This document shows, piece after piece, positions 7,193-64,000 of a stretch of 64,000 nucleotides of DNA. The stretch is taken from NCBI GenBank assembly GCA_024998595.1, contig JACOEK010000002.1:186001-250000 (forward strand), read 5' to 3'. Within the stretch, counting starts at the first letter, position 1, and each line of letters opens with the position of its first letter. This DNA comes from Nitrospira sp. GTDB lineage: Bacteria; Nitrospirota; Nitrospiria; Nitrospirales; Nitrospiraceae. The notes beneath the pieces are model-generated. The model was given only the letters and a program-made list of their open reading frames with translations, made no database searches and was not told the origin of the DNA. The position numbers and the translations under genes are program-made.

Positions 7193-7576
7193 ATGTGGAC
7201 TCTGCGGTTCCTCGGCATGCGTCACATACTTCTCACCGCTACGGTCGGCCTGACAGTCGCGGCGGCCTGTGAGTTTGCGCGGGCCCAGGAATTCCCCCCG
7301 GATGCCGTCAAAGGCAAGGTAGTCTATGAGCGGAATTGCCTTGCCTGCCACGGCCCCGGCGGACGAGGCGACGGACCCGATGCCGCCGCGCTGAGGGTCC
7401 CGCCGGCCAATTTTCACCGTTTCAAATCCTTCCTCAAATCAGACGAAGAACTGCTCCGGACGATAGAGCACGGCATTGTTTTCAGCCCCATGCATTCGTG
7501 GCAGGGACAATTGACCGAAACTGAGCGGCAGGACGCGCTTGCCTACATCCGTCTGCTCGTACAGCGAGGGCAATAG
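7193..7576 (+). CDS. Periplasmic monohaem cytochrome c (class I)
   Basis: A 127-residue exported cytochrome. A hydrophobic N-terminus (about residues 9-31, ending in ARAQ) is a Sec signal peptide. CLACH binds the haem covalently, and the Met in FSPMHSW is the likely sixth ligand. The order CHGPGGRGDGPDAAALRVPPANFHRF is shared with the cytochrome at 55580-55942, so the two are paralogues. A GAGGGTG site precedes the ATG. It probably carries electrons in the periplasm; its partner is not evident here. Starts at M1 and M9 are both compatible with the signal peptide. Confidence 0.9.
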   Translation: MWTLRFLGMRHILLTATVGLTVAAACEFARAQEFPPDAVKGKVVYERNCLACHGPGGRGDGPDAAALRVPPANFHRFKSFLKSDEELLRTIEHGIVFSPMHSWQGQLTETERQDALAYIRLLVQRGQ

Positions 7577-26826: not shown

Positions 26827-27636
26827 TTACGCCAGACCACGCTTCCAACCACTGAGCGCGCAGCGCCGGGCCGTCAACGGGGTCATGCTCTCAAGGTCCG
26901 CAGCCACGCTGGTCATGACCGTATCGGCGAGCCGGTCGTCCTCGAAACATTCATAGGCATCGTCGAGAAAGCCCCCACGTAACAGCGGATGTTGGAGAAA
27001 CCGCTGCCCGGACCCGCTCGCCACTTCAAGCGGTCGCTCGATCACGTCGATCCGTTCCATCTGCAGCTGTTCAAGCCATCCACGTGCCTCCGCCGCCGAT
27101 GGCCGTTCCGCCACATACGCGGCCAGCCGTTCACGCTCCCTCGTCAGCCCGTGCCGGCTCATTTCGTGATCAATCCGTTGCCAGATGGAATCGAACGTTC
27201 CCAGCGAAGGAAAGGTCAGCACCACTTGGCCTCCCGGCTCAAGATGTTCGATCAAGCCCCGCATCGCCTCGAACCGGTGCGGTCGGAGGAACATCACGGA
27301 GAGATTGCCGGTGATGCGTTGGAAGGTCGGGAGGGATGCGGGCAAGGCGCGCATGTCGACACATTCGTAACGGAGCCAGGGCAACTCACCCCGCTGAATA
27401 GTTCTGGCATTCGCTACCTGGCCGCGACTGGCATCGATCCCGAGGACGGAGCCGGTCGGCCCAACCTGTTCGGCCAGGTAGAAGGCCGGGATGCCGTGGC
27501 CACAGGCGATATCGAGGATGGTCAGCCCGGGACGCAGATCCAGTTGTTCCAACAGCAGTTCCGCAAAGGGGGTCGACCACTCATCGTCTGCGGGAAGGGG
27601 CCATCGCGAGGAGGAAGATGCGGAGGGCCTGTTCAT
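26827..27636 (-). CDS. Class I SAM-dependent methyltransferase
   Basis: A 269-residue Rossmann-fold methyltransferase. Motif I is ILDIACGHGIPAFYLA (about 40-55), followed by VLGIDASRGQVANAR (acidic residue binding the ribose) and YECVDMRALP (motif III). It resembles UbiE/Methyltransf_25 enzymes. The C-terminal 100 residues are helical and may bind the acceptor, which cannot be identified. It lies 123 nt after the SHOCT lipoprotein gene and 41 nt before the Slp gene on the same strand. Confidence 0.85.
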   Translation of the reverse strand: MNRPSASSSSRWPLPADDEWSTPFAELLLEQLDLRPGLTILDIACGHGIPAFYLAEQVGPTGSVLGIDASRGQVANARTIQRGELPWLRYECVDMRALPASLPTFQRITGNLSVMFLRPHRFEAMRGLIEHLEPGGQVVLTFPSLGTFDSIWQRIDHEMSRHGLTRERERLAAYVAERPSAAEARGWLEQLQMERIDVIERPLEVASGSGQRFLQHPLLRGGFLDDAYECFEDDRLADTVMTSVAADLESMTPLTARRCALSGWKRGLA

Positions 27637-27759: not shown

Positions 27760-28599
27760 TCACAAGCGGTCCAGGAGCTGCTGCTTCTTCGTGAGATAGT
27801 CTTCCTCTGTGATCAAGCCCTGTTCCCGAAGACGTTTGAGCAGGCTGAGTTGTTCTTCCAGCGAACGCGTCGGGACCGACTGAGCAGGGGGCGGCGAAGA
27901 AACCGGAACCGGGGTTGAACCCATCTCGCCGTGGTACTCGATCACCAGTTCGTCCGGGTCGGCACGAAACGGATTTCCGCCGTCCCGAGTCGCATGCGTG
28001 ATCACCTGCCCTTCACCCGGCACGAATTCATAAAACGCCCCGGCCTGCGCAAACAAGGGATCCTTCCAGATCTGTTTCCTGATCGAGGGCATGGTCACGG
28101 CGATCCGGCAGTTCGCCATACGAAGATGGATTCGACTGTCTTCGACAAACCAGACGCCTGAAGTGACCTGATCCAATCCCGCTTCCGACGGCCTGGCCAA
28201 TGCGAACACCACCTGCTCCTGCGCGGAGGCTTGCTGAAAAGCACGCGGCAACGATTCTCCCAGATACCGGACTTCCTCTTCGGAAAACGCTGGTTCCGTG
28301 TCTCCCCGATAGGATGCGCCGAGGAGGGGGCTGTGAATACTTCGCACCTTCACCGCTCGCAGCAGGGCTTCCCATTCCTGCCGCTGCAGATCGAACGGGT
28401 GATGGAGTAGCCGTTTTTGATCGGGCCCCTGCGTGAGCGGAACAATTCGGACGAGCCGCTGGTCGTCACACGAGAAACAGGGCATCTGACTGGACGGAGC
28501 CAGGCCCGAACAGGCGGGTACGACGAGACAGAAGAGGCACAAGACTGTGACATTCGCCCATCGCACAAACTGTTTGTTCACAAGCCTGTGATCTTCCAT
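27760..28599 (-). CDS. Lipoprotein with C-terminal SHOCT domain
   Basis: A 279-residue predicted lipoprotein. The signal region VTVLCLFCLVVPAC ends in a lipobox-like VPAC. The last 35 residues (LEEQLSLLKRLREQGLITEEDY, then LTKKQQLLDRL) form a SHOCT domain, a short helical oligomerisation module. The central 180 residues are not recognised; they contain a CFSCDDQ pair. The ATG at 28599 is preferred over a TTG at 28623, which would overlap the cytochrome-porin gene; the gap is then 13 nt, indicating one transcript with that gene. Confidence 0.75.
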   Translation of the reverse strand: MEDHRLVNKQFVRWANVTVLCLFCLVVPACSGLAPSSQMPCFSCDDQRLVRIVPLTQGPDQKRLLHHPFDLQRQEWEALLRAVKVRSIHSPLLGASYRGDTEPAFSEEEVRYLGESLPRAFQQASAQEQVVFALARPSEAGLDQVTSGVWFVEDSRIHLRMANCRIAVTMPSIRKQIWKDPLFAQAGAFYEFVPGEGQVITHATRDGGNPFRADPDELVIEYHGEMGSTPVPVSSPPPAQSVPTRSLEEQLSLLKRLREQGLITEEDYLTKKQQLLDRL

Positions 28600-28612: not shown

Positions 28613-30082
28613 TCAATACGCAAAATCCAATCCGACCAGCATGGTTTGTCCTCTCAGATCACCGCCGGTCGGGCCGACGGCTTGCGTGCGATAGGCATTG
28701 TATTCCGCATGCAACGCCAGGTCGGTGCGCGTGGAGTGATGAATGAAATACCGGGCCAGCACGGTGTGGGAATCGACATCATTATAGTTCCCTTTGAACA
28801 CGTCCGTGTTGCCGTCACCATGCCGGTCGTTTCGAATGACATCATACCGATACGCAAAAAACCAGTCCGGCATGTCGAAGAACAGGGCTGGCGCATAGTC
28901 CAATTCGACGAACGCCCCGTTCCAGGACGCGTTCTGCGCAGTTGGAATCCCTTGCGAGGCAAACAATTGCGCGCTGTCATGTCCATGCATGATCGCGCCG
29001 AAGACATTCCACTCGCCGTTGAAGGTCAAACTCACATCGACGCCGATTCTCGTAAACGGCTTCCCGCTGCCCGCGACGCCCTGACAGGTCGGACAGGTCG
29101 CATTGACCATCGTCGGGGCCTGGCCGTAAGCGCCGAAGATTCCCACTCGATTCCCGGTCACAATCCCATAACCGCCGAACGATTGCGTGATGTGGCCATA
29201 GAAATTCACATTTCGTCCGCCGGTCCCGCACGGGGTATTGGGAGGACAGCCGCCCAGTGGCCCTGAGAACGAGTTGGTGGCCAGCGCGGTCAGCGAATAA
29301 CGGAGGTACCCTTCCGTGGACGGTGTTTTCATAATGCCCGAGAGTTCCCCGCCGGGCTGGTTATCTCCCAACAGAAAGGAATTGGGATTCAAATAGGAGC
29401 TGGTCGAGGTTCCTCCGACGGTCGCCGTGTAGGGCACACCCGGCGTGTAATGGTACATGACGAAGGGCGTATTCAACGTCGGGCTGCGTTTTTCGCTGAA
29501 CGGCAGATCGAGCTCAAATTTTCCCACGCGCAAGTTCAAGAGATAGTTGCCCGGGTCGGATTTGACGCCGAAATATCGCTCCAGTCGCATCAGACGCACG
29601 AAGGCGCTTTCAAGATCCCCGTCCGAGGCGCCGGTACCGAATCCCGCGCTGCCGAGTCCCGGCGTATAGACCACGCCAAAGGCGATATCCCGGTGCAGTG
29701 TACCGAAACTCAACAGGTCCAAGCCGGTGAAGCCGAATCCTCCGGTCGTCACACCGCTGCCTTCCGTCCTCACCTGCGCCGCCTGGTAGCCGACCGTCGC
29801 GCGAATCGAAACCGGCCAGAAACCCATCCCGATCCCCTCATAGACCGGCGAATCCGCTTCGGATCCCAGTTGATAGCCGCGATCCCTGAAGAGATTGCCG
29901 AAGTCGTTGAGCTTGGGGAAACCGGGGACGTGGCACACGTTACACTTGAAATCATACTTACGGGCAAACGCCGGAATCGCCTCGGCCTTTTGAACCAGCC
30001 CGCTCAATTCGTAACTGACGAGCGCCATCAGGACAAGGATGGAGACAATTGCCGCCCTGGCACGCAATGTTGAGCTCTTCAT
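28613..30082 (-). CDS. Cyc2-like outer-membrane fused monohaem cytochrome-porin
   Basis: A 489-residue exported protein. After the signal peptide (ending KAEAIPAFAR) comes a single CNVCH haem site within FARKYDFKCNVCHVPGFPKL followed by NDFGNLFRDRGY. The remaining 400 residues are aromatic and Gly/Asn-rich alternating strands that end in VGLDFAY, with a terminal aromatic residue as in outer-membrane beta-barrels. This architecture (short haem domain plugged into a 14-18-strand barrel) is that of Cyc2/Cyt572, which moves electrons across the outer membrane in iron oxidisers. GGGAGG precedes the ATG at 30082. It lies 41 nt after an exported carboxypeptidase-regulatory-like protein gene. A generic haem-tagged porin is the alternative. 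Confidence 0.75.
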   Translation of the reverse strand: MKSSTLRARAAIVSILVLMALVSYELSGLVQKAEAIPAFARKYDFKCNVCHVPGFPKLNDFGNLFRDRGYQLGSEADSPVYEGIGMGFWPVSIRATVGYQAAQVRTEGSGVTTGGFGFTGLDLLSFGTLHRDIAFGVVYTPGLGSAGFGTGASDGDLESAFVRLMRLERYFGVKSDPGNYLLNLRVGKFELDLPFSEKRSPTLNTPFVMYHYTPGVPYTATVGGTSTSSYLNPNSFLLGDNQPGGELSGIMKTPSTEGYLRYSLTALATNSFSGPLGGCPPNTPCGTGGRNVNFYGHITQSFGGYGIVTGNRVGIFGAYGQAPTMVNATCPTCQGVAGSGKPFTRIGVDVSLTFNGEWNVFGAIMHGHDSAQLFASQGIPTAQNASWNGAFVELDYAPALFFDMPDWFFAYRYDVIRNDRHGDGNTDVFKGNYNDVDSHTVLARYFIHHSTRTDLALHAEYNAYRTQAVGPTGGDLRGQTMLVGLDFAY

Positions 30083-30123
30083 CGGATCAGCCTCCCATTT
30101 CACAGACCGGCTGCATTGGTAGG

Positions 30124-30984
30124 TTATTCAGGCGGAAGTTCGTCGCCGCCGGCAATCTTCCACTCGACTTCTACCGAACGGACGGGAAACTCGAATCGAG
30201 ATTCGACCCGCGCTTTCGGAGCAATCTCTAACGGTTGCCGGATGACATGGGGTTCGTCATACACGGGGCGAGAAGAACTGAACTTGACGATATTGAACCC
30301 GGGATGCCAGGCGACCATTGTGTAAGACCCCGGTGGAATGCCGGTAATTTCAAATCGTCCCTGTTCATCGGTGACGGCGAAATACGGATGGTCGAACGCC
30401 GCCGCCCACGCATTCATATGCACATGCACATCGCACTGGAGCCGTAATCCGACGCCGCGTGCCCGAACCAGTGTGGCTGCAATTTCCCGGTTCGCCGTCG
30501 GCATGGCAATATTGAAGAGGCTTTGTTTATCGCTGAACAGATGCGGATTGTGGAGAATCGGTTCGAAATTGATCAGCGCGACTTCCGCCGTGCGGACAAA
30601 CGGAATCATCTGCTGCTCGAACTGGCAGGCCCGCCCCGTCGGATGAGTCGCGCTTTTTCCCATACGCAGCGGATAAGCAGCCGCAGCGGTCTTGCCCCGT
30701 TCCACCCGCTCGAGATACACGAGGACTTCCTGAAGGCCGTTGGTGGCCGGATCGATGCGTAAGACCGGTGACGGCACCTGAGCGCCGCATCCATCCAGAT
30801 CGGCAAACACTTTGAGCGGGGGCAGCTTCGGGATGCTTTCTTTCCAGACAGCCTGGCCTTTGACCGTGCCTCCGTCGGAGACATCGATGATTTCATACTC
30901 CGCATATCCGCTGGTGACGGTGAGAAGCCATGTCAGACAGCACAGAAGCAGAAGGCGGTGACCGCGATGTCGTCGTGGAGACAT
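30124..30984 (-). CDS. Exported protein with cupredoxin/carboxypeptidase-regulatory-like domain
   Basis: A 286-residue protein with a Sec signal peptide (LLLLCCLTWLLTVTSGYAE). The N-terminal part (GTVKGQAVWKESIPKLPPLKV, then a CGAQ and a CQFEQQMIPFV segment) resembles the methylamine-utilisation or plastocyanin-like family. LQCDVHVHMNAWAAAFDHPYF supplies clustered Cys and His that could bind copper. The end (GRFEITGIPPGSYTMVAWHPG) is a carboxypeptidase-regulatory-like strand pair. The ATG at 30984 has GAGG 6 nt upstream; earlier in-frame ATGs at 30996 and 31002 lack a good site. It is first in the cluster with the cytochrome-porin, so a periplasmic electron-transfer or structural role is plausible. 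Confidence 0.7.
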   Translation of the reverse strand: MSPRRHRGHRLLLLCCLTWLLTVTSGYAEYEIIDVSDGGTVKGQAVWKESIPKLPPLKVFADLDGCGAQVPSPVLRIDPATNGLQEVLVYLERVERGKTAAAAYPLRMGKSATHPTGRACQFEQQMIPFVRTAEVALINFEPILHNPHLFSDKQSLFNIAMPTANREIAATLVRARGVGLRLQCDVHVHMNAWAAAFDHPYFAVTDEQGRFEITGIPPGSYTMVAWHPGFNIVKFSSSRPVYDEPHVIRQPLEIAPKARVESRFEFPVRSVEVEWKIAGGDELPPE

Positions 30985-31030
30985 GCAAGACCTCATCGAC
31001 ATACCGAGGGCCGGATGACCCAGGGCGGTG

Positions 31031-31180: not shown

Positions 31181-32194
31181 CTATTTGATACCGATGACCA
31201 TGGAGTCCGGCCCGGCCAGATGTTCAACTTTCGTTCGTTGGAAGCCGGCCTTCTTCATCCATTGCCGGCAATCCGCACCGGTGAAATCAAATCCGCCCTT
31301 GGTCTCAATGAGCATATTGAGGCTCATCAACAAGCCGAACATGTTGGTTTTCCGGGCATCATCGATCAGGGCCTCATGGACGATCAACGCGCCGCCTGGT
31401 GGCAGCGCCGCATGCGCCTTGCGCAACAGCATCATTTTTTCTTTGAGATCCCAGTCGTGCAAGATATGCCCCATGATGAGCACATCGACCTTCGGCAGCG
31501 ATTCCTTGAAAAAGTCTCCGTCGTGAAACGCCACTCGCTTCTGCAGCTTCTTGCTTTTGACATAGGCCTCGAAGACCGGCCGAACCACGGGAAGATCCAT
31601 GCCCTGACCGTTGAGATGCTGGTGTGCCAGCGCAATCTCGACTGCCACGCCACCCTGAGCACAGCCGATGTCGGCAAACGAGCGATAGCGCTTCCACGGA
31701 AACTTCGCAGCCATGGCCCGGGCCGTCCCCTGACTGAGTCCGGTCATCGCCTTGAGAAATCCTTCCAGCCGCCGCGGATCGGCGTAGAGCGTGCCGAAGA
31801 AATCTGTGCCTGTCTTCACCTCGTTCTGCGGCTTGCCCGTCTGCAGCGCTTCCGTCAGTGATCCCCAGAATCCATACAGGCGGGCATTACACATCTCCAG
31901 CATGCCCCCGACATAGGATGGCTTGGCGCGATCGAGAAACAGGGCGGTCTCCGGCGTGTTGGCATAACGTGCCCCGGTCCGTTTCAGCAGGCCAAGCGCC
32001 ACCAAGGCATCGAAGAAGTCCCGCGCGCTGCGCGGATGCAGTTTCAGCCTGGCGGCCAAGGCTTTGCCGTCGAGCCGACGCTTCGCCAACTCCGTGAAGA
32101 GGCCCAGCTCCACCGCCGTCAATAAGGTCTTGGACCCCCAAAACCCGAAACCAATCTGCAAGAGTCGATCAGGAACCAATGCACGACCGGCCAT
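31181..32194 (-). CDS. O-methyltransferase with N-terminal dimerisation domain
   Basis: A 337-residue SAM-dependent methyltransferase of the HIOMT/CrtF/plant-OMT type. Residues 1-90 are a winged-helix dimerisation domain ([23 protein letters not shown]-like pattern). The catalytic domain contains [16 protein letters not shown] (motif I), [18 protein letters not shown] and [17 protein letters not shown], where the His is the usual catalytic base position. The substrate is probably a phenol, polyketide or carotenoid, not determinable here. The start at 32194 follows AAAGGATGGCATC; an upstream ATG at 32212 overlaps that site. It ends at a strong intrinsic terminator. Confidence 0.87.
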
Positions 32195-32366
32195 GATGCC
32201 ATCCTTTCTCATGAAAAATACCGAGAGAGGCTACGCGGGAAACTCGGCGCTGTCAATTTGAATGACTGAGCGGCGGCAGTGGAGCGTATCGTCGACCGTG
32301 TTCAACGAACCTGTCGTAGGGCCGGGGATTCGCCTAGTTACTCGGAACCCCATCCCGGTCTTAAAT

Positions 32367-37997: not shown

Positions 37998-39122
37998 TCA
38001 CCGCAGCAGTATCTTCGCGGCCTGCTTCACGCCTTCCAGCAATGTGAGACCTGCAGCGCGGGCATGGCGGTTGTAATACTGGGAGGTGATCGACCGTCGG
38101 ACACCAGTTGACCATTCGAGCTTGTATGGTTGGGCCCCCTGCAATAGATCCACCATTCGCTCGCCGTCACAGACGGCTTGTTGAATACGGTGGGACAACA
38201 GGAGTAGACCCGGGCTGGCCTTCGGAACCATGTCCGGATCGAACCCGGGCAAATAAAAATAGTACACACCCTGATAGACGAATCCATACACGCCTGCAAT
38301 GGGGTGCCCATCCAGCGACAACAGATCGATACTGACTCGACCTCGCTCACTGAACACTCGCACAATGTCCTGGTGAAACCGTTTCGCTGGCTCATTCGCA
38401 AAAACGCCACCGCTCGGCCGAGAACTCCATCGTTGTTGGTGGAGGGTGACGACCGTCTCGAAAGTCGCTTCGACATCGGCAGGGCTCGTGGCCCGAGTAA
38501 AATGCAGCAATCCGGCCTCTTGGAGACACCTTGTCTTTCGTTGCAAGGTGTACCGCCTGCTCCGTCCAAGGCTGGCGCGATACGTGTGGAGAGCTTCTGG
38601 CAGCCGGATGACGGGACAGCAGCTCGTCGTGACCACCCTTCCAACTTTCCCTGCATGGGCGAATAACTCGTTCCACAGATCGAGCGTGGCGGACTCGGCA
38701 GGCACATCAGACAGCGTCAGAAGGTCCCACTCAACCCGCACGTCATCGAAGAGGTAGTGGTAGAGGCTCTGGAGCACGGCGGGCTTGTGCGGCTCGTGCA
38801 CAATGAAATCAAGATACGACGAACAGACGGCTTCGCTACCCAGCCACCTCAATTCCCGAAGAGGGATCACGCCATGCTTTTTGGTGCGACGGAGGTAGAA
38901 CGGCGCAATGCCGACCAGCCTTTCGTGCTCGTCGAAGGCGAGAAGAATCCTCAGCTGACTATCTCCCAAATAGTGTATGGCCCAGTAGTAGAGCCATTCC
39001 CACGTGAGAAAAATGCTGTGTCCCGGCATTGTATTGAGCAACGCTTCCCATTCCCGAGCCAGTCCTTTGAATTCCTCGAGTGAGGTGACGCTACGAATGA
39101 TCAGGGGGCAGCGCAGCTTCAT
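37998..39122 (-). CDS. FemAB-like GNAT protein of the PEP-CTERM locus
   Basis: A 374-residue GNAT-superfamily protein of the FemAB/CelD (BcsL) type. WEWLYYWAIHYLG and LVGIAPFYLRR are the N-terminal fold, and GHPIAGVYGFVYQGVYYFYLPGFDPD followed by SPGLLLLSHRIQQAVCDGERMVDLLQG is the acyl-transfer domain. Such proteins accompany exosortase and EPS genes and probably modify a polysaccharide or peptide. The start ATG overlaps the exosortase stop by 4 nt (ATGA), so the two are coupled. Confidence 0.83.
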   Translation of the reverse strand: MKLRCPLIIRSVTSLEEFKGLAREWEALLNTMPGHSIFLTWEWLYYWAIHYLGDSQLRILLAFDEHERLVGIAPFYLRRTKKHGVIPLRELRWLGSEAVCSSYLDFIVHEPHKPAVLQSLYHYLFDDVRVEWDLLTLSDVPAESATLDLWNELFAHAGKVGRVVTTSCCPVIRLPEALHTYRASLGRSRRYTLQRKTRCLQEAGLLHFTRATSPADVEATFETVVTLHQQRWSSRPSGGVFANEPAKRFHQDIVRVFSERGRVSIDLLSLDGHPIAGVYGFVYQGVYYFYLPGFDPDMVPKASPGLLLLSHRIQQAVCDGERMVDLLQGAQPYKLEWSTGVRRSITSQYYNRHARAAGLTLLEGVKQAAKILLR

Positions 39123-40699
39123 GGGATGTACTCGCGCAGCAGCGGGAAAACAGTGGCGGCAAAATCCTCCTGCATTTTCCAGGTATCTTCCCTGTCATTG
39201 GTTTGCTGGTTGGAGAAGACCATCACCAGCGCGCCGTCCGTCCGACCTCGCGTGAAGGCCTGCTTGATCGTCGCAAGTTTCGTCAAGGAACGATCCGCGT
39301 AACTTTGGCCATCAATGTGATACCAGAATACAGCCGGAATCTGCCGGCGGCCCTGTTCGACGATGGTACGATTTGCCGGCGCCTGATGCCCCACCTGCAG
39401 GACGGTTGGGAGGGCTTTCTCATGAAGCGGAGCCGTGTGCAAGCCCACCAGTTCTTTTCCCTGGCGTTGGGTTTTTGTATAGGCAACCGCAAGCGTCACT
39501 CGACGGCCGTCTGTTGCACGATAGCTCCGGACAATTGATGTATCCGTATCCGGCAAGCCCACGGGCAACTCGTCGTCCCGCTGGTGATCGATGGTCCAGG
39601 TACCGATGACGAACGGAAAGGTTTTCGGATCTTGTAGGAGTCCGGTCGCGCCGCGATCAATGGAATAGAGTGCGCCGGTCGCGGCCGCAAGCATGATTCC
39701 AGCCAACCACCAGGCACGAGTCGAAACCTGATCAAGAGCAACACCTCCGCGGAAGGATTCCTTTTTCAGCGGTCCCATGGCTATCGACGCCGCAGGTTCC
39801 GTCGCACTAAGCAGCCACGCCCCGACGAAGAGACAACCGATGGCAATCCAATCGACGAACAGGCCCTGCAAAATATGGTATGGCCCGTGAAGACTCTTTC
39901 CCCCTGCCTGAGCGTAGACGCCCATCACCGTCAATCGTACCCAGTTCGCCACAATCGCGATGAGCACCGACGACAACACCAAGACAATTCGCCTCCACCA
40001 TGCCTGCAGAGTGAGAAACGCCAGTGGCAACGCGATGGCCAGAACGGCGATGAGCAATCCGGCGCCGCTACATTCCCTCGCCACTTCCAGTGTGACAGTG
40101 GGAAGAACGATAAAGATTCGGTTCTCGAGCAACACAGGTATGCCGAGCGTCTGCAACATGGAGACGGACATGTTCGCGGTGAGAAGCTGAAATGGCCATT
40201 CCAACGGTTCGGTCACGATATCAAGTAGCGGTGTCATGAAGATCAAATAGGCCAAAGGAAGAACCAGCGCCTTGAGATAGGCGTACCCGAAGAGGAGCAC
40301 GATGAGCCCTGCCAGAAGCAGAATGAAGGCCACACTGCCGGTTGTCAGGATGCCGGCCACCTCACTCGCCAGCAACAAGAGTGCAGCAGTCCCGACCCAT
40401 AACGTCCCTATGCCAATGGCCGGTGTCGTTCGAGCGGCTCGCAACATGGGCCATTGCAGCCAGGCAAGATAGAGACTAATCAGAGGAACGAGGAATCCAT
40501 GCGAGAAGCCGTATCGGTTCGACCACAAGTCCCAGAGGTCGCTCCGGATAGGCGCGGAGAGCAACAAGACAAGTATGCCGAGGCCACCGGCTCGCAACAC
40601 AAACGGATAGTCGGCGAGCCAGCTCGTGGTCGTACGCGCGAAGGAGCGCCATGGCCCTGGGGTCACTCTGTCGGAGGTCGTGATGAGCGAATTGTCCAC
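39119..40699 (-). CDS. xrtA: Exosortase fused to an EpsI-type C-terminal domain
   Basis: A 526-residue inner-membrane protein. Residues about 30-300 are the exosortase: eight or more hydrophobic helices, the catalytic Cys C210 in EVARECSGAG, Arg R255 in IVANWVRLTVMG and a His in HGPYHILQG (H275 probable). It should cleave PEP-CTERM proteins and transfer them to the envelope. After a helix at about 330-350, residues 360-526 form an EpsI domain (FPFVIGTWTIDHQRDDELP). It starts with GTG. Exosortase A-type proteins of this fused form go with FemAB-like GNAT, deacetylase and PrsT, all present here. The four PEP-CTERM proteins to the right are the likely substrates. Confidence 0.9.
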   Translation of the reverse strand: MDNSLITTSDRVTPGPWRSFARTTTSWLADYPFVLRAGGLGILVLLLSAPIRSDLWDLWSNRYGFSHGFLVPLISLYLAWLQWPMLRAARTTPAIGIGTLWVGTAALLLLASEVAGILTTGSVAFILLLAGLIVLLFGYAYLKALVLPLAYLIFMTPLLDIVTEPLEWPFQLLTANMSVSMLQTLGIPVLLENRIFIVLPTVTLEVARECSGAGLLIAVLAIALPLAFLTLQAWWRRIVLVLSSVLIAIVANWVRLTVMGVYAQAGGKSLHGPYHILQGLFVDWIAIGCLFVGAWLLSATEPAASIAMGPLKKESFRGGVALDQVSTRAWWLAGIMLAAATGALYSIDRGATGLLQDPKTFPFVIGTWTIDHQRDDELPVGLPDTDTSIVRSYRATDGRRVTLAVAYTKTQRQGKELVGLHTAPLHEKALPTVLQVGHQAPANRTIVEQGRRQIPAVFWYHIDGQSYADRSLTKLATIKQAFTRGRTDGALVMVFSNQQTNDREDTWKMQEDFAATVFPLLREYIP

Positions 40700-40739
40700 G
40701 CGAGGGCCTTTCTACGAACGCTGCCCGGCGACTCCCATT

Positions 40740-42908
40740 CTAGTCCTCGATCTTGTTCGCCGCGACCATCCTCGCCGCGCGATCCGATTGTGGGAAATGG
40801 CCGGGGAGCAGCAAGGCCGTCCTCATCTCGGACAAGGCCTCCTTTTGCCTCCCAATCTTGGCCAGCGCCACGGCGTGGTGGTAACGGACAACTGGATGCT
40901 GCGGGAGAGCCGCCGAGGCCTCAGACAGAAACGGATACCCCTTATCGACCCGACCTTGCTTGAGATAGATCCATCCGAGCGTATCTTTAATCGCGGGGTT
41001 GGAGGGCGCCAGATCAAGGGCATCTCTCGCAAACGCGAACGCATCATTCAGTTCCTGTCGTTCGCTGAGGCTGACCGCTAGATTGTTGGCGGCCACAACG
41101 TTCTTGGGGTTCAGCTGAACCGCACGGCGATAGTGTGCGTCAGCCGCTTCTATCTTCCCCTGCCCCTCCAACAGCGCGCCCAGCGCCGTATGGACGCCGG
41201 AGTTCGTCTCCTCCTTGTCCAGAGCGGCCTGGAACGCGGACTGGGCTGCAGACACCTTGTTCTGCAAAACATACAATTGCCCAAGCTCATAGTGAATCAA
41301 CGCCAGATTCGGCGCCAGGGCCAGCGCTTTACGGAAGGCCTTTTCCGCTTGTTCCGTCTTGTGCTGAGCGGCATACACTCGTCCCGCAAGTCTCCACAGG
41401 CTGGGATCGCGCGGGCCTTTCCTCAAGTACTCGCCCATCACCCGATCCGCCTGTTGCTCCTGCTTCGATTCCACAAGCGCCATGAGATAGTCCTGGAGAA
41501 TCACGAGATCTTCCGGTGCATGAGACAGAGCCTGTGAAAACAGGCTGGCCATCTCAGCCGATTGTCCCTGCACTTTTCGAAGAGCCGCCATCTTTACATA
41601 GCCGACTGGATGGCCGGGAAGTTGTCGAATGATGGCGCCGTAGGCATTTTCAGCCTTGCTCCAGTTCTTTCCTAGAACCAGCGCGTCGCCAAAGATGACT
41701 GCGGCTTCGAGATTGGACGGGTTCAACTGCAGGGCTTGCCAGGCTTCCTTTTCCGCTTCTACCGGTTTCTGTTCGGCGAGGTACGCCCGTGCCAACGCGA
41801 GGTGTGCCGGTTGGTTCGCATTATCTAACCTGACCGCTTCACGCAATGCATCCAGCGCAGAATCCGTCCGTCCCTGCGCCAACCGGGTCAGCCCCAAATA
41901 AAGATGAACGCCGGGAAGGTTCGCATTCCGACCGATGGCTTCGTCGAAGAGACCGGCCGCTTGAAGCAGATCGTTCTCGGCCAGCGCAATTCGGCCCTTG
42001 AGATACAGACCAACCGGGTCATGTGCGTCGGCCGCAAGAATCGCCTGCACGAGGGGTTTCGCTTCTGCGGCCTGGCCTGAGGTCAGCTTTAATTCTGCAA
42101 GCGCCTGGCGTGCACTCATGGAATTCATCTCCGCCATGAGGCCAGCCAATTCTCGCTCGGCATCAGCCCGTCGGCCAAGCACGGCATACCGATCGGCGAG
42201 TATCAGACGGACACGTTCCTGATCAGGGCTCAGCTCGACGGCTTTCCGAAACTCCTGGCGACCCTCTTCTCCACTGCCGGTCGCGAACAGAAAATGCCCC
42301 CGTGCGACGCGGGCATCGACAGAATGAGAATCGGCTTGAACCGCCCGGGCATACCATTCCGCAGCCTGCTTCAGCTCTTGCTGCGCGAAGTAGATGTTGG
42401 CCAGCGCAAGGATTGGCCGAACCATGGTCCGGTCAAGCTCGACCGCAGACTTGAACCTCTCGATCGCCTCGCCAACCCGGCTCGCGCCCAATGCGACGCC
42501 GGCACGTACCAGATGGCCGGCAGGATGATTGGGACGCGCCGCAAGCAGCGCGTCGGCGATCTTGCCGGCTTCATCTAATTTGCCAGCGGCCACATGGAGA
42601 TCGCCGAGAGACCATTGCGCGTCAAAATGAGTCGGATCGAGTTGCAGCACTCGATTGAGGGAGGCAAACGAGGTTGAGGGATCGCCCGCCTGGAACGCGA
42701 CTTTAGCAAGCTTCCACTGCAACGCAGAGTTATCGGGAGTCGCTTGCACCGCATTTTTGTATTCGATCACCGCCTCTCGGAACTTTTCCTGCTGCGCATA
42801 CCCGTCTCCGCGGCTCTCATGTTTGGCAGCCCGATTAGCCGGAGCTTCGGAACATCCTGCGACCGTGAGCGCCATCGCGAGGGCATAGAAGACAGCGAAC
42901 TTTGCCAT
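40740..42908 (-). CDS. prsT: PrsT-type TPR-repeat lipoprotein of the PEP-CTERM system
   Basis: A 722-residue lipoprotein. The signal peptide MAKFAVFYALAMALTVAGC ends in a lipobox. The rest is about 18-20 tetratricopeptide repeats (for example GDGYAQQEKFREAVIEYKNA, LGQLYVLQNKVSAAQSAFQA), a long solenoid for protein interaction in the periplasm. The PEP-CTERM TPR lipoprotein (PrsT) occurs next to exosortase in this arrangement. The start at 42908 has AGGTGG just upstream; the longer frame to 42962 overlaps the substrate gene. It lies 29 nt after a PEP-CTERM gene and 40 nt before the exosortase. Confidence 0.87.
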   Translation of the reverse strand: MAKFAVFYALAMALTVAGCSEAPANRAAKHESRGDGYAQQEKFREAVIEYKNAVQATPDNSALQWKLAKVAFQAGDPSTSFASLNRVLQLDPTHFDAQWSLGDLHVAAGKLDEAGKIADALLAARPNHPAGHLVRAGVALGASRVGEAIERFKSAVELDRTMVRPILALANIYFAQQELKQAAEWYARAVQADSHSVDARVARGHFLFATGSGEEGRQEFRKAVELSPDQERVRLILADRYAVLGRRADAERELAGLMAEMNSMSARQALAELKLTSGQAAEAKPLVQAILAADAHDPVGLYLKGRIALAENDLLQAAGLFDEAIGRNANLPGVHLYLGLTRLAQGRTDSALDALREAVRLDNANQPAHLALARAYLAEQKPVEAEKEAWQALQLNPSNLEAAVIFGDALVLGKNWSKAENAYGAIIRQLPGHPVGYVKMAALRKVQGQSAEMASLFSQALSHAPEDLVILQDYLMALVESKQEQQADRVMGEYLRKGPRDPSLWRLAGRVYAAQHKTEQAEKAFRKALALAPNLALIHYELGQLYVLQNKVSAAQSAFQAALDKEETNSGVHTALGALLEGQGKIEAADAHYRRAVQLNPKNVVAANNLAVSLSERQELNDAFAFARDALDLAPSNPAIKDTLGWIYLKQGRVDKGYPFLSEASAALPQHPVVRYHHAVALAKIGRQKEALSEMRTALLLPGHFPQSDRAARMVAANKIED

Positions 42909-42937
42909 TGACCACCTACACCCTCCACTTAACTCCC

Positions 42938-43750
42938 TCAGACGGAAGCCTTTGTGAACCATCGCGTTCGCCGCCAGGCAAGCAGACCAATGATTCCGGA
43001 CCCAATTACCAATGCGCCATTCGGCTCAGGTGCACTCGTGCTGATCGCGTTCGGGACCGTTGCAAACCCACCGCTGAGGACGCCGGGGGTGGAGGAACCA
43101 AAGCTGGCAAATCCATCCAGAAATCCAGTCGTAAAGGTCGGTCCGACATTCGATTGATAGCCGACGAGTGGTCCCGTCAGACCTGATCCAAGAATATTTT
43201 GAAACGTCCAGTAGGGATGGGTCCGGCTTCCAGAAAATGTGGGGTTGGTTAAAATTCCGATCTGCTCAGGACCTGACACGATCCTGGCCGCAATCCCAAG
43301 GGTAGCGGCGCCCTGTAAACTATTGCCCATCGCGTTCACAATGGCCCCGCCATTTAGAAAGTCGAGTCGGAGATTCCCCGAAGCAAATGCACCGACCGTG
43401 GTGGTGGAAACAGGCCGGCTATTCGTGAATTCCGATTGAAAGCTCGTGACAATACGATTGGGTGGGAATGAACTGGTATTGGCAACTTGATACAGGTAGG
43501 TGTACTTGCTGGAGTCAAAGCCGGAATTGCCCTGGCCCGGGGCATAGGCTCCGGCTAATACTCCGGCAAAGGAGTCGAATGGTGATAGGACGGCATAATT
43601 CACGATGCCCAATCCCGCGATCTCGAAGTTTCCGGTGAACCCGGGAAGCGGCACCGCCTGTAACTTGGATGGTAAACCTGGGACCATCAGCATCCCCATG
43701 ACCAGGCCCACAATCGCGACACAGAACCTTCTGCCCAACAATCGATTCAT
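42938..43750 (-). CDS. PEP-CTERM surface protein
   Basis: A 270-residue exported protein. It has an N-terminal signal peptide (CVAIVGLVMGMLMVPGLPSKLQA) and a C-terminal sorting tail SAPEPNGALVIGSGIIGL followed by LAWRRTRWF: the PEP motif, a hydrophobic helix and a basic end. The body shares PGFTGN, NYAVLSPFDSFAG, SKYTYLYQVAN and LRLDFLNGGAIVN with the genes at 43747 and 48472, so it is one of three paralogues. The tail has the motif PEPN rather than the commoner PEPG. The start overlaps the preceding gene stop by 4 nt (ATGA). Exosortase should process it. Confidence 0.9.
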   Translation of the reverse strand: MNRLLGRRFCVAIVGLVMGMLMVPGLPSKLQAVPLPGFTGNFEIAGLGIVNYAVLSPFDSFAGVLAGAYAPGQGNSGFDSSKYTYLYQVANTSSFPPNRIVTSFQSEFTNSRPVSTTTVGAFASGNLRLDFLNGGAIVNAMGNSLQGAATLGIAARIVSGPEQIGILTNPTFSGSRTHPYWTFQNILGSGLTGPLVGYQSNVGPTFTTGFLDGFASFGSSTPGVLSGGFATVPNAISTSAPEPNGALVIGSGIIGLLAWRRTRWFTKASV

Positions 43751-63675: not shown

Positions 63676-64000
63676 TCACCGATCGCACTGTTCGCCTGCA
63701 CAACCTCCACCTCCGCTTCCCATTCCACGATGTCCCATGCCTCCCATCTCTTCTCGCGGCCCCCTATGGCCCATTCCCTCCGGAGGCCCCATTTCTGGAC
63801 CATGTCCATGCTCCTTCGCAAAGGTGCGTTCATACTGGAGCAACGCCCATATCTCCTCGTCCGTCAATTGGTCTGCAAATCCAATCATGCTGGTACCGGC
63901 CGATCCGTGCTTGATGACCCAGAAGATTTCTCCTTCCGTGCGATGGCGCCAGAACCCATGATGCTGGAAGTTACGGGGAGACGGGTTCAATTGCGCCGCC
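63676..64000 (-). CDS. Cytochrome c, C-terminal part, cut by the window end
   Basis: The frame remains open to the window edge, so the start and haem site lie beyond position 64000. What is seen (about 107 residues) has AAQLNPSPRNF, TEGEIFWVIKHGSAGTSMIGF with the likely axial Met, and LTDEEIWALLQYERTFA, which is the class I cytochrome end. The tail is remarkable: GHGHGPEMGPPEGMGHRGPR and further Met/Gly/His repeats ending GGGGCAGEQCDR, possibly a metal-binding extension. It is similar to the 7193 and 55580 cytochromes in its PxNF and SMIGF/SPMH segments. Confidence 0.8.
   Translation of the reverse strand, partial: AAQLNPSPRNFQHHGFWRHRTEGEIFWVIKHGSAGTSMIGFADQLTDEEIWALLQYERTFAKEHGHGPEMGPPEGMGHRGPREEMGGMGHRGMGSGGGGCAGEQCDR

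Follow-up and report, generated by a model that had tools for sequence, protein, structure and literature searches.

Does a nitrite-oxidising Nitrospira carry a Cyc2-type protein that moves electrons across its outer membrane, and what might feed it? The question is raised by one gene within the window, the whole stretch of 64,000 nucleotides of DNA that was analysed. This gene encodes P0001, a Cyc2-like fused cytochrome-porin. P0001 is read here as an outer-membrane electron conduit of Cyc2 type, with a probability of roughly 0.6. A reductant that is small and soluble would enter the lumen of the predicted 16-strand porin, and a single c-type haem, probably attached at the periplasmic mouth, would accept one electron. 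A periplasmic carrier would then pass this electron inward to the respiratory chain. The carrier in this genus may be the neighbouring cupredoxin, and in related lineages a class I monohaem cytochrome c.

The presence of Cyc2 in such a host, which the first-pass annotation placed outside a known iron-oxidiser context, is already on record. Cyc2 homologues are described in nitrite- or ammonia-oxidising Nitrospirales (PMC9040806), are cited in Nitrospira MAGs (PMC12070406), and cyc2-like genes are reported in UBA8639 and Nitrospinaceae (PMC11995701). The accessible text of the FeGenie paper assigns iron-oxidation potential to ‘Candidatus Nitrospira defluvii’ via “either cyc2 or sulfocyanin”, leaving the choice unstated (PMC7005843). 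Nitrospira can dominate rapid sand filters that remove iron and manganese along with ammonium, where it has been suggested to take part in manganese oxidation (PMC12070406). The accessible text of PMC9040806 and PMC12070406 gives no operon anatomy for Nitrospira Cyc2. For the carrier context, that is, the pairing of porin and cupredoxin or the exchange of carriers, no earlier report was found in a limited search from which subscription papers were missing.

The host is a Nitrospira, and the first-pass annotation's view of it as a nitrite oxidiser is supported, because nxrA fragments lie on contig C10 of its assembly. Two nxrA 5′-ends, 91–93% identical to N. defluvii NxrA, sit at both edges of this contig. 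N. defluvii itself (FP929003, locus L144; G023) belongs to the same genus set, and its NxrA finds matches in 26 of the 29 genus genomes. NxrB was not found in the host genome with either TIGR03478 or an N. defluvii NxrB query; across the genus TIGR03478 matched 7/12 members, strongly in 5, and the NxrB query matched 20/29 genomes, many through contig-edge fragments only. A loss of nitrite oxidoreductase in the clade was considered and rejected on the strength of the NxrA matches and the C10 ends. The best reading of its seeming absence is that nxr, being present in several copies, interrupts the assemblies, a problem also noted by others (PMC12342949). Searches of the host genome for AmoA (PF02461) and MtrB/PioB (TIGR03509) gave no match, which shows little, as no control matched either.

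The features of the locus are as follows.

28613..30082, minus strand: Cyc2-like fused cytochrome-porin gene (protein P0001), ATG at 30082, stop at 28613, 489 aa
29978..30082, minus strand: signal peptide of P0001, residues 1–35, ending AEA, assigned by eye
29849..29980, minus strand: cytochrome domain of P0001, residues 35–78, with the Cyc2 signature AIPAFARKY...CNVCH...PKL
29930..29944, minus strand: CNVCH haem-attachment motif, residues 47–51 (C47-N-V-C-H51)
28616..29809, minus strand: predicted 16-strand porin barrel, residues 92–489, from the AlphaFold2 model and OprP/OprO matches
30124..31002, minus strand: cupredoxin-like domain followed by a CarboxypepD_reg-like domain, a putative periplasmic electron carrier, directly upstream of the porin gene
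27760..28599, minus strand: lipoprotein with a C-terminal SHOCT domain (8.1e-7), overlapping or abutting the porin gene
31181..32212, minus strand: O-methyltransferase gene, a conserved flanking neighbour
26827..27636, minus strand: class I methyltransferase gene, a conserved flanking neighbour

Elsewhere in the window, an exosortase/EpsH-DUF3485 gene stands beside a large TPR-repeat gene (39119–42962), probably serving exopolysaccharide or protein sorting. Two further stretches resemble class I cytochrome c (7271–7555, plus strand; 63808–64000, minus strand), and 12 such matches occur genome-wide.

The boundaries given by the first-pass annotation for the porin gene are exact. The plus strand of the same interval contains two in-frame stops, and GTG at 30103 is an alternative start. 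Full-length orthologues occur in 22 genomes of the genus, and a contig-edge fragment brings the count to 23 of 29, the host included; the other orthologues are 79–98% identical to P0001. The gene is accessory within the genus, and six genomes lack it (G011, G012, G016, G019, G024 and G028). Across the 22 orthologues, 42 of 44 residues are invariant in the haem domain (35–78) versus 273 of 398 in the barrel. Ten computed orthologue pairs give dN/dS values of 0.02–0.11, pointing to strong purifying selection. The recurrence of orthologues, the invariant haem domain and these ratios together argue that the gene is not a chance reading frame. Searches of plasmids and viral contigs found no relatives.

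P0001 combines one CxxCH, as the first-pass annotation had noted, with a large predicted beta-barrel. This motif is the only CxxCH in the 489 residues and follows the by-eye signal peptide. The haem domain runs AIPAFARKY-DFK-CNVCH-VPGF-PKLNDFG and is followed by about 400 residues, with three residues between AIPAFARKY and CNVCH and four between CNVCH and PKL. The supposed ligand-rich stretch after CxxCH did not hold up: the family alignment contains no invariant His or Met in the following ~100 residues. Beyond the haem motif, the invariant His and Met residues are H211, M365, H439 and H458, and H297 is conserved in 95% of 21 rows.

Membership of Cyc2 was judged by the criteria of Keffer 2021 and FeGenie. 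The published signature is AXPXFAR[Q/K][T/Y] before CXXCH and PXL four residues after it, within a haem domain described as the most conserved part of Cyc2 (PMC8406198). P0001 has every element at the correct spacing. Its single CXXCH, its length (489 aa against a minimum of 365) and its C-terminal porin, OprO/OprP-like with 16 strands in a low-confidence model, also agree. Three residues separate CXXCH and PXL in 12 of the 17 rows of alignment A2, those outside the P0001 family. Sequence similarity to the RQT Cyc2 proteins is more limited. Blastp E-values range from 0.002 to 8e-13, most near 1e-7, for a nominal database of 1e6 residues; scaled to nr, most would exceed the criterion of 1e-5. 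The similarity is confined to residues 1–148 of P0001, mostly the cytochrome domain. Pfam and NCBIfam searches assigned P0001 to no family, and in a wider haem-porin set Porin_4 matched 5/17 members and Porin_O_P 1/17.

Phylogeny places P0001 apart from the proteins of neutrophilic iron oxidisers. A motif scan of named genomes returned at least 119 stretches; among the matches listed, Gallionella, Sideroxydans, Mariprofundaceae, Chlorobium and Ferrigenium contribute heavily, and Bacteroidota and Nitrospira also appear. Of 345 Nitrospirota genomes, 130 contain a match to the P0001-family profile at E 1e-5, and several of these matches are different subfamilies. Trees of 110 rows and, more carefully, 68 rows were built from the motif-scan matches listed (L082–L161) and Nitrospirota sequences, and they agree. 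The 30 RQT-type rows (Gallionella/Gallionellaceae, Zetaproteobacteria, Chlorobium) stand on one side of a branch with support 100/100, and P0001 stands on the other. The P0001 family forms its own Nitrospirota clade (15 rows, 100/99), joined on its side by RKY types of Nitrospirota and Bacteroidota and separated from the RQT Cyc2 proteins by about 1.6 changes per column. Because of this split and the restriction of blastp similarity mostly to the cytochrome domain, P0001 is best described as Cyc2-like in architecture and motif, outside the Cluster 1 clade. The Cyc2/Cyt572 architecture claimed by the first-pass annotation stands as a fused cytochrome-porin with an exact Cyc2 signature. The outcome that it named as counting against its claim, a greater resemblance to generic haem-tagged outer-membrane proteins, is partly borne out by the grouping with RKY porins. 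The Cyc2 motif alone marks a far wider haem-porin group than the proven iron oxidases.

This position bears on whether P0001 acts as a genuine Cyc2 in function, an oxidase for Fe(II) (or Mn(II)) in particular, and so provides the nitrite oxidiser with a second lithotrophic donor. Such a specific role is conceivable, if doubtful. The RKY branch that includes P0001 also includes the Bacteroidota Marinilabilia and Tangfeifania, which to our knowledge are not known as iron oxidisers. The separate clade and the accessory distribution of the gene speak in the same direction. On the other side stand the Cyc2 signature and fold, carrier genes like those of some iron-oxidiser loci, and earlier suggestions that Cyc2 of Nitrospira and Manganitrophus serves Mn or Fe oxidation (PMC9040806, PMC12070406, PMC7005843). 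Fe(II) and Mn(II) are, by analogy alone, our guess at the leading candidate substrates; sequence cannot tell Fe(II), Mn(II) and other substrates apart.

The genes around the porin include likely electron carriers. The upstream protein (30124–31002) has H149, C188, H191 and M194 invariant in 8 rows (..LHN..CDVHVHM), the His-Cys-His-Met ligand set of type 1 copper. Pfam gives it no cupredoxin match, and an amicyanin profile matches weakly over the right region (E 0.026–0.52); it is likely a cupredoxin. Its gene lies 6–101 bp upstream of the porin gene in all 23 genus members that carry the latter, and the SHOCT lipoprotein gene lies downstream in all 21 members with enough flank. Other Nitrospirota loci present a different carrier: in 15 of 24, the porin gene has within 200 bp a gene for a monohaem cytochrome c of class I, which matched Pfam Cytochrom_C in the single example searched. 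Both carriers occur in G275 and GL140_6, in the latter with the cytochrome 1.7 kb away. Neither occurs in seven of the 24 (G051, G036, G117, G351, G204, G229 and NC1035), and G046 has a weak candidate as its only one, 779 bp away. These counts are not independent, because near relatives are among the loci. That cupredoxin and cytochrome c stand in for each other at one position is the strongest hint that the conserved role is one-electron transfer, and it suggests an electron conduit in the outer membrane. The metal or extracellular electron exchange proposed by the first-pass annotation stays plausible; the carrier genes favour a conduit and do not point to its substrate. For comparison, a crude motif test of RQ-type (iron-oxidiser) loci with flanks of 600 bp on both sides found a haem or CxxHxxM neighbour in 17/59 of the matches listed.

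A more ambitious extension is that Nitrospira of the N. defluvii genus possess a metal-fed second electron entry. The pore of a Nitrospirota-specific Cyc2 lineage would be the site at which dissolved Fe(II) or Mn(II) is oxidised. The electrons would go to the cupredoxin, which would have taken the place of a class I cytochrome c used ancestrally, much as plastocyanin replaces cytochrome c6. The loci with both carriers would then be relics of the switch. As a whole, this scenario is speculative and rather unlikely.

A second haem-porin family of Nitrospira, family B, is also found in carrier company. In L201, L205 and L206 (G024, G018 and G022) the haem-porin gene is followed closely, on the same strand, by genes for a dihaem cytochrome c, then a cupredoxin-like protein, then a sensor kinase; L204 and L203 deviate from this order, and L202 lacks it.

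The host genome contains a family B remnant (G000:C6, ~610.1–610.7 kb; L220:8124–8726; L079), a 201-aa frame without CxxCH. Next to it stands a sensor kinase gene, with neither the dihaem cytochrome c nor the cupredoxin that relatives have. G009 (L219) has a similarly shortened gene without CxxCH.

The direction of transfer deserves separate consideration. Electrons might instead pass outward at low oxygen, from the carrier through the haem to an acceptor outside the cell, or the protein might serve redox sensing or poise. A haem-porin with a periplasmic carrier would be neutral as to direction, and in family B the gene immediately after that of the cupredoxin-like protein encodes the kinase. 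The cluster in the window has no adjacent kinase gene, and by the argument made for Cyc2 a solid acceptor is unlikely, since a single haem on the periplasmic side fails to bridge the membrane (PMC8406198). Outward flow or sensing is accordingly improbable, and inward transfer to the cupredoxin is the direction preferred here.

Structure prediction is consistent with a porin and imprecise around the haem. The AlphaFold2 model of P0001, made from a 25-sequence alignment, has a mean pLDDT of 57 (low confidence) and a pTM of 0.61. It is weakest at residues 28–88 and 188–241, with pLDDT ~38 around the haem domain. DSSP counts 16 strands over residues 92–488 of this low-confidence model, above the limit of fewer than 12 at which the first-pass annotation would have given up its claim. 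Foldseek returned OprP and OprO as the top solved matches, and VIA-align 2 scored OprO at Z 21.7 (320 residues, rmsd 4.1) and OprP at Z 21.2, with alignments spanning residues 79/83–489; many other 16-strand porins score close behind. PDB sequence searches with P0001 and its profile found nothing significant. Keffer et al. name the same two porins for Mariprofundus Cyc2-PV-1 (PMC8406198). A model of Ferrigenium straubiae Cyc2 (pLDDT 77) also matched general porins, with OprP fourth.

A nutrient porin, selective for phosphate or another anion in the manner of OprO/OprP and bearing a vestigial or structural haem tag, would explain the best fold matches and the conserved charged barrel residues (K188, E190, D192, E197, R199), and is quite improbable given that the haem domain is more conserved than the barrel and that the conserved neighbours are electron-carrier genes, not transporters.

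The conduit reading weighs the signature with its four-residue spacing, the OprO/OprP fold, the invariant haem domain, the carriers and family B against the position outside the RQT clade, blastp similarity mostly to the cytochrome domain, the lack of a Pfam or NCBIfam family, the low pLDDT at the haem, the lack of a conserved distal His or Met near CxxCH and the carrierless loci. Other roles are compatible with a fold like that of phosphate porins and with the accessory distribution of the gene. The haem-porin/cupredoxin cassette, conserved across many genomes and present on the finished N. defluvii chromosome, offers a concrete protein pair to test.

Among the known systems close to P0001 is Cluster 1 Cyc2 (Mariprofundus ferrooxydans PV-1, Gallionellaceae, Chlorobium). 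P0001 shares with it the signal peptide, the one CxxCH, the AXPXFAR motif, PXL at spacing four, and a predicted 16-strand porin of OprO/OprP-like fold. Unlike Cluster 1, which has RQT, P0001 carries RKY and falls in a separate clade. Blastp leaves the two barrels unaligned, and the 489 aa of P0001 compare with mostly 400–480 among the Cluster 1 matches listed. The architecture is also alike in Acidithiobacillus ferrooxidans Cyc2 and Leptospirillum Cyt572 (Clusters 2 and 3), as compared through published descriptions. The cytochrome c and copper-protein genes that accompany haem-porin genes recall the rus operon, ordered cyc2-cyc1-cup, and the gene company of family B is similar to this cyc2-cyc1-cup arrangement, as far as the operon is described in the accessible text (PMC10654088). 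Several RKY haem-tagged porins of Bacteroidota align with P0001 by blastp over nearly full length (22–25% identity, E ~1e-11 to 1e-13). Among the matches listed, 15 of their loci contain the gene at full length, and in 12 of these its neighbour encodes a five-haem cytochrome, mostly of ~455 aa. The Cyc2 homologues of Nitrospirales, Manganitrophaceae and Nitrospira MAGs belong to the same phylum as P0001 and presumably to the same or sister families (PMC9040806, PMC12070406).
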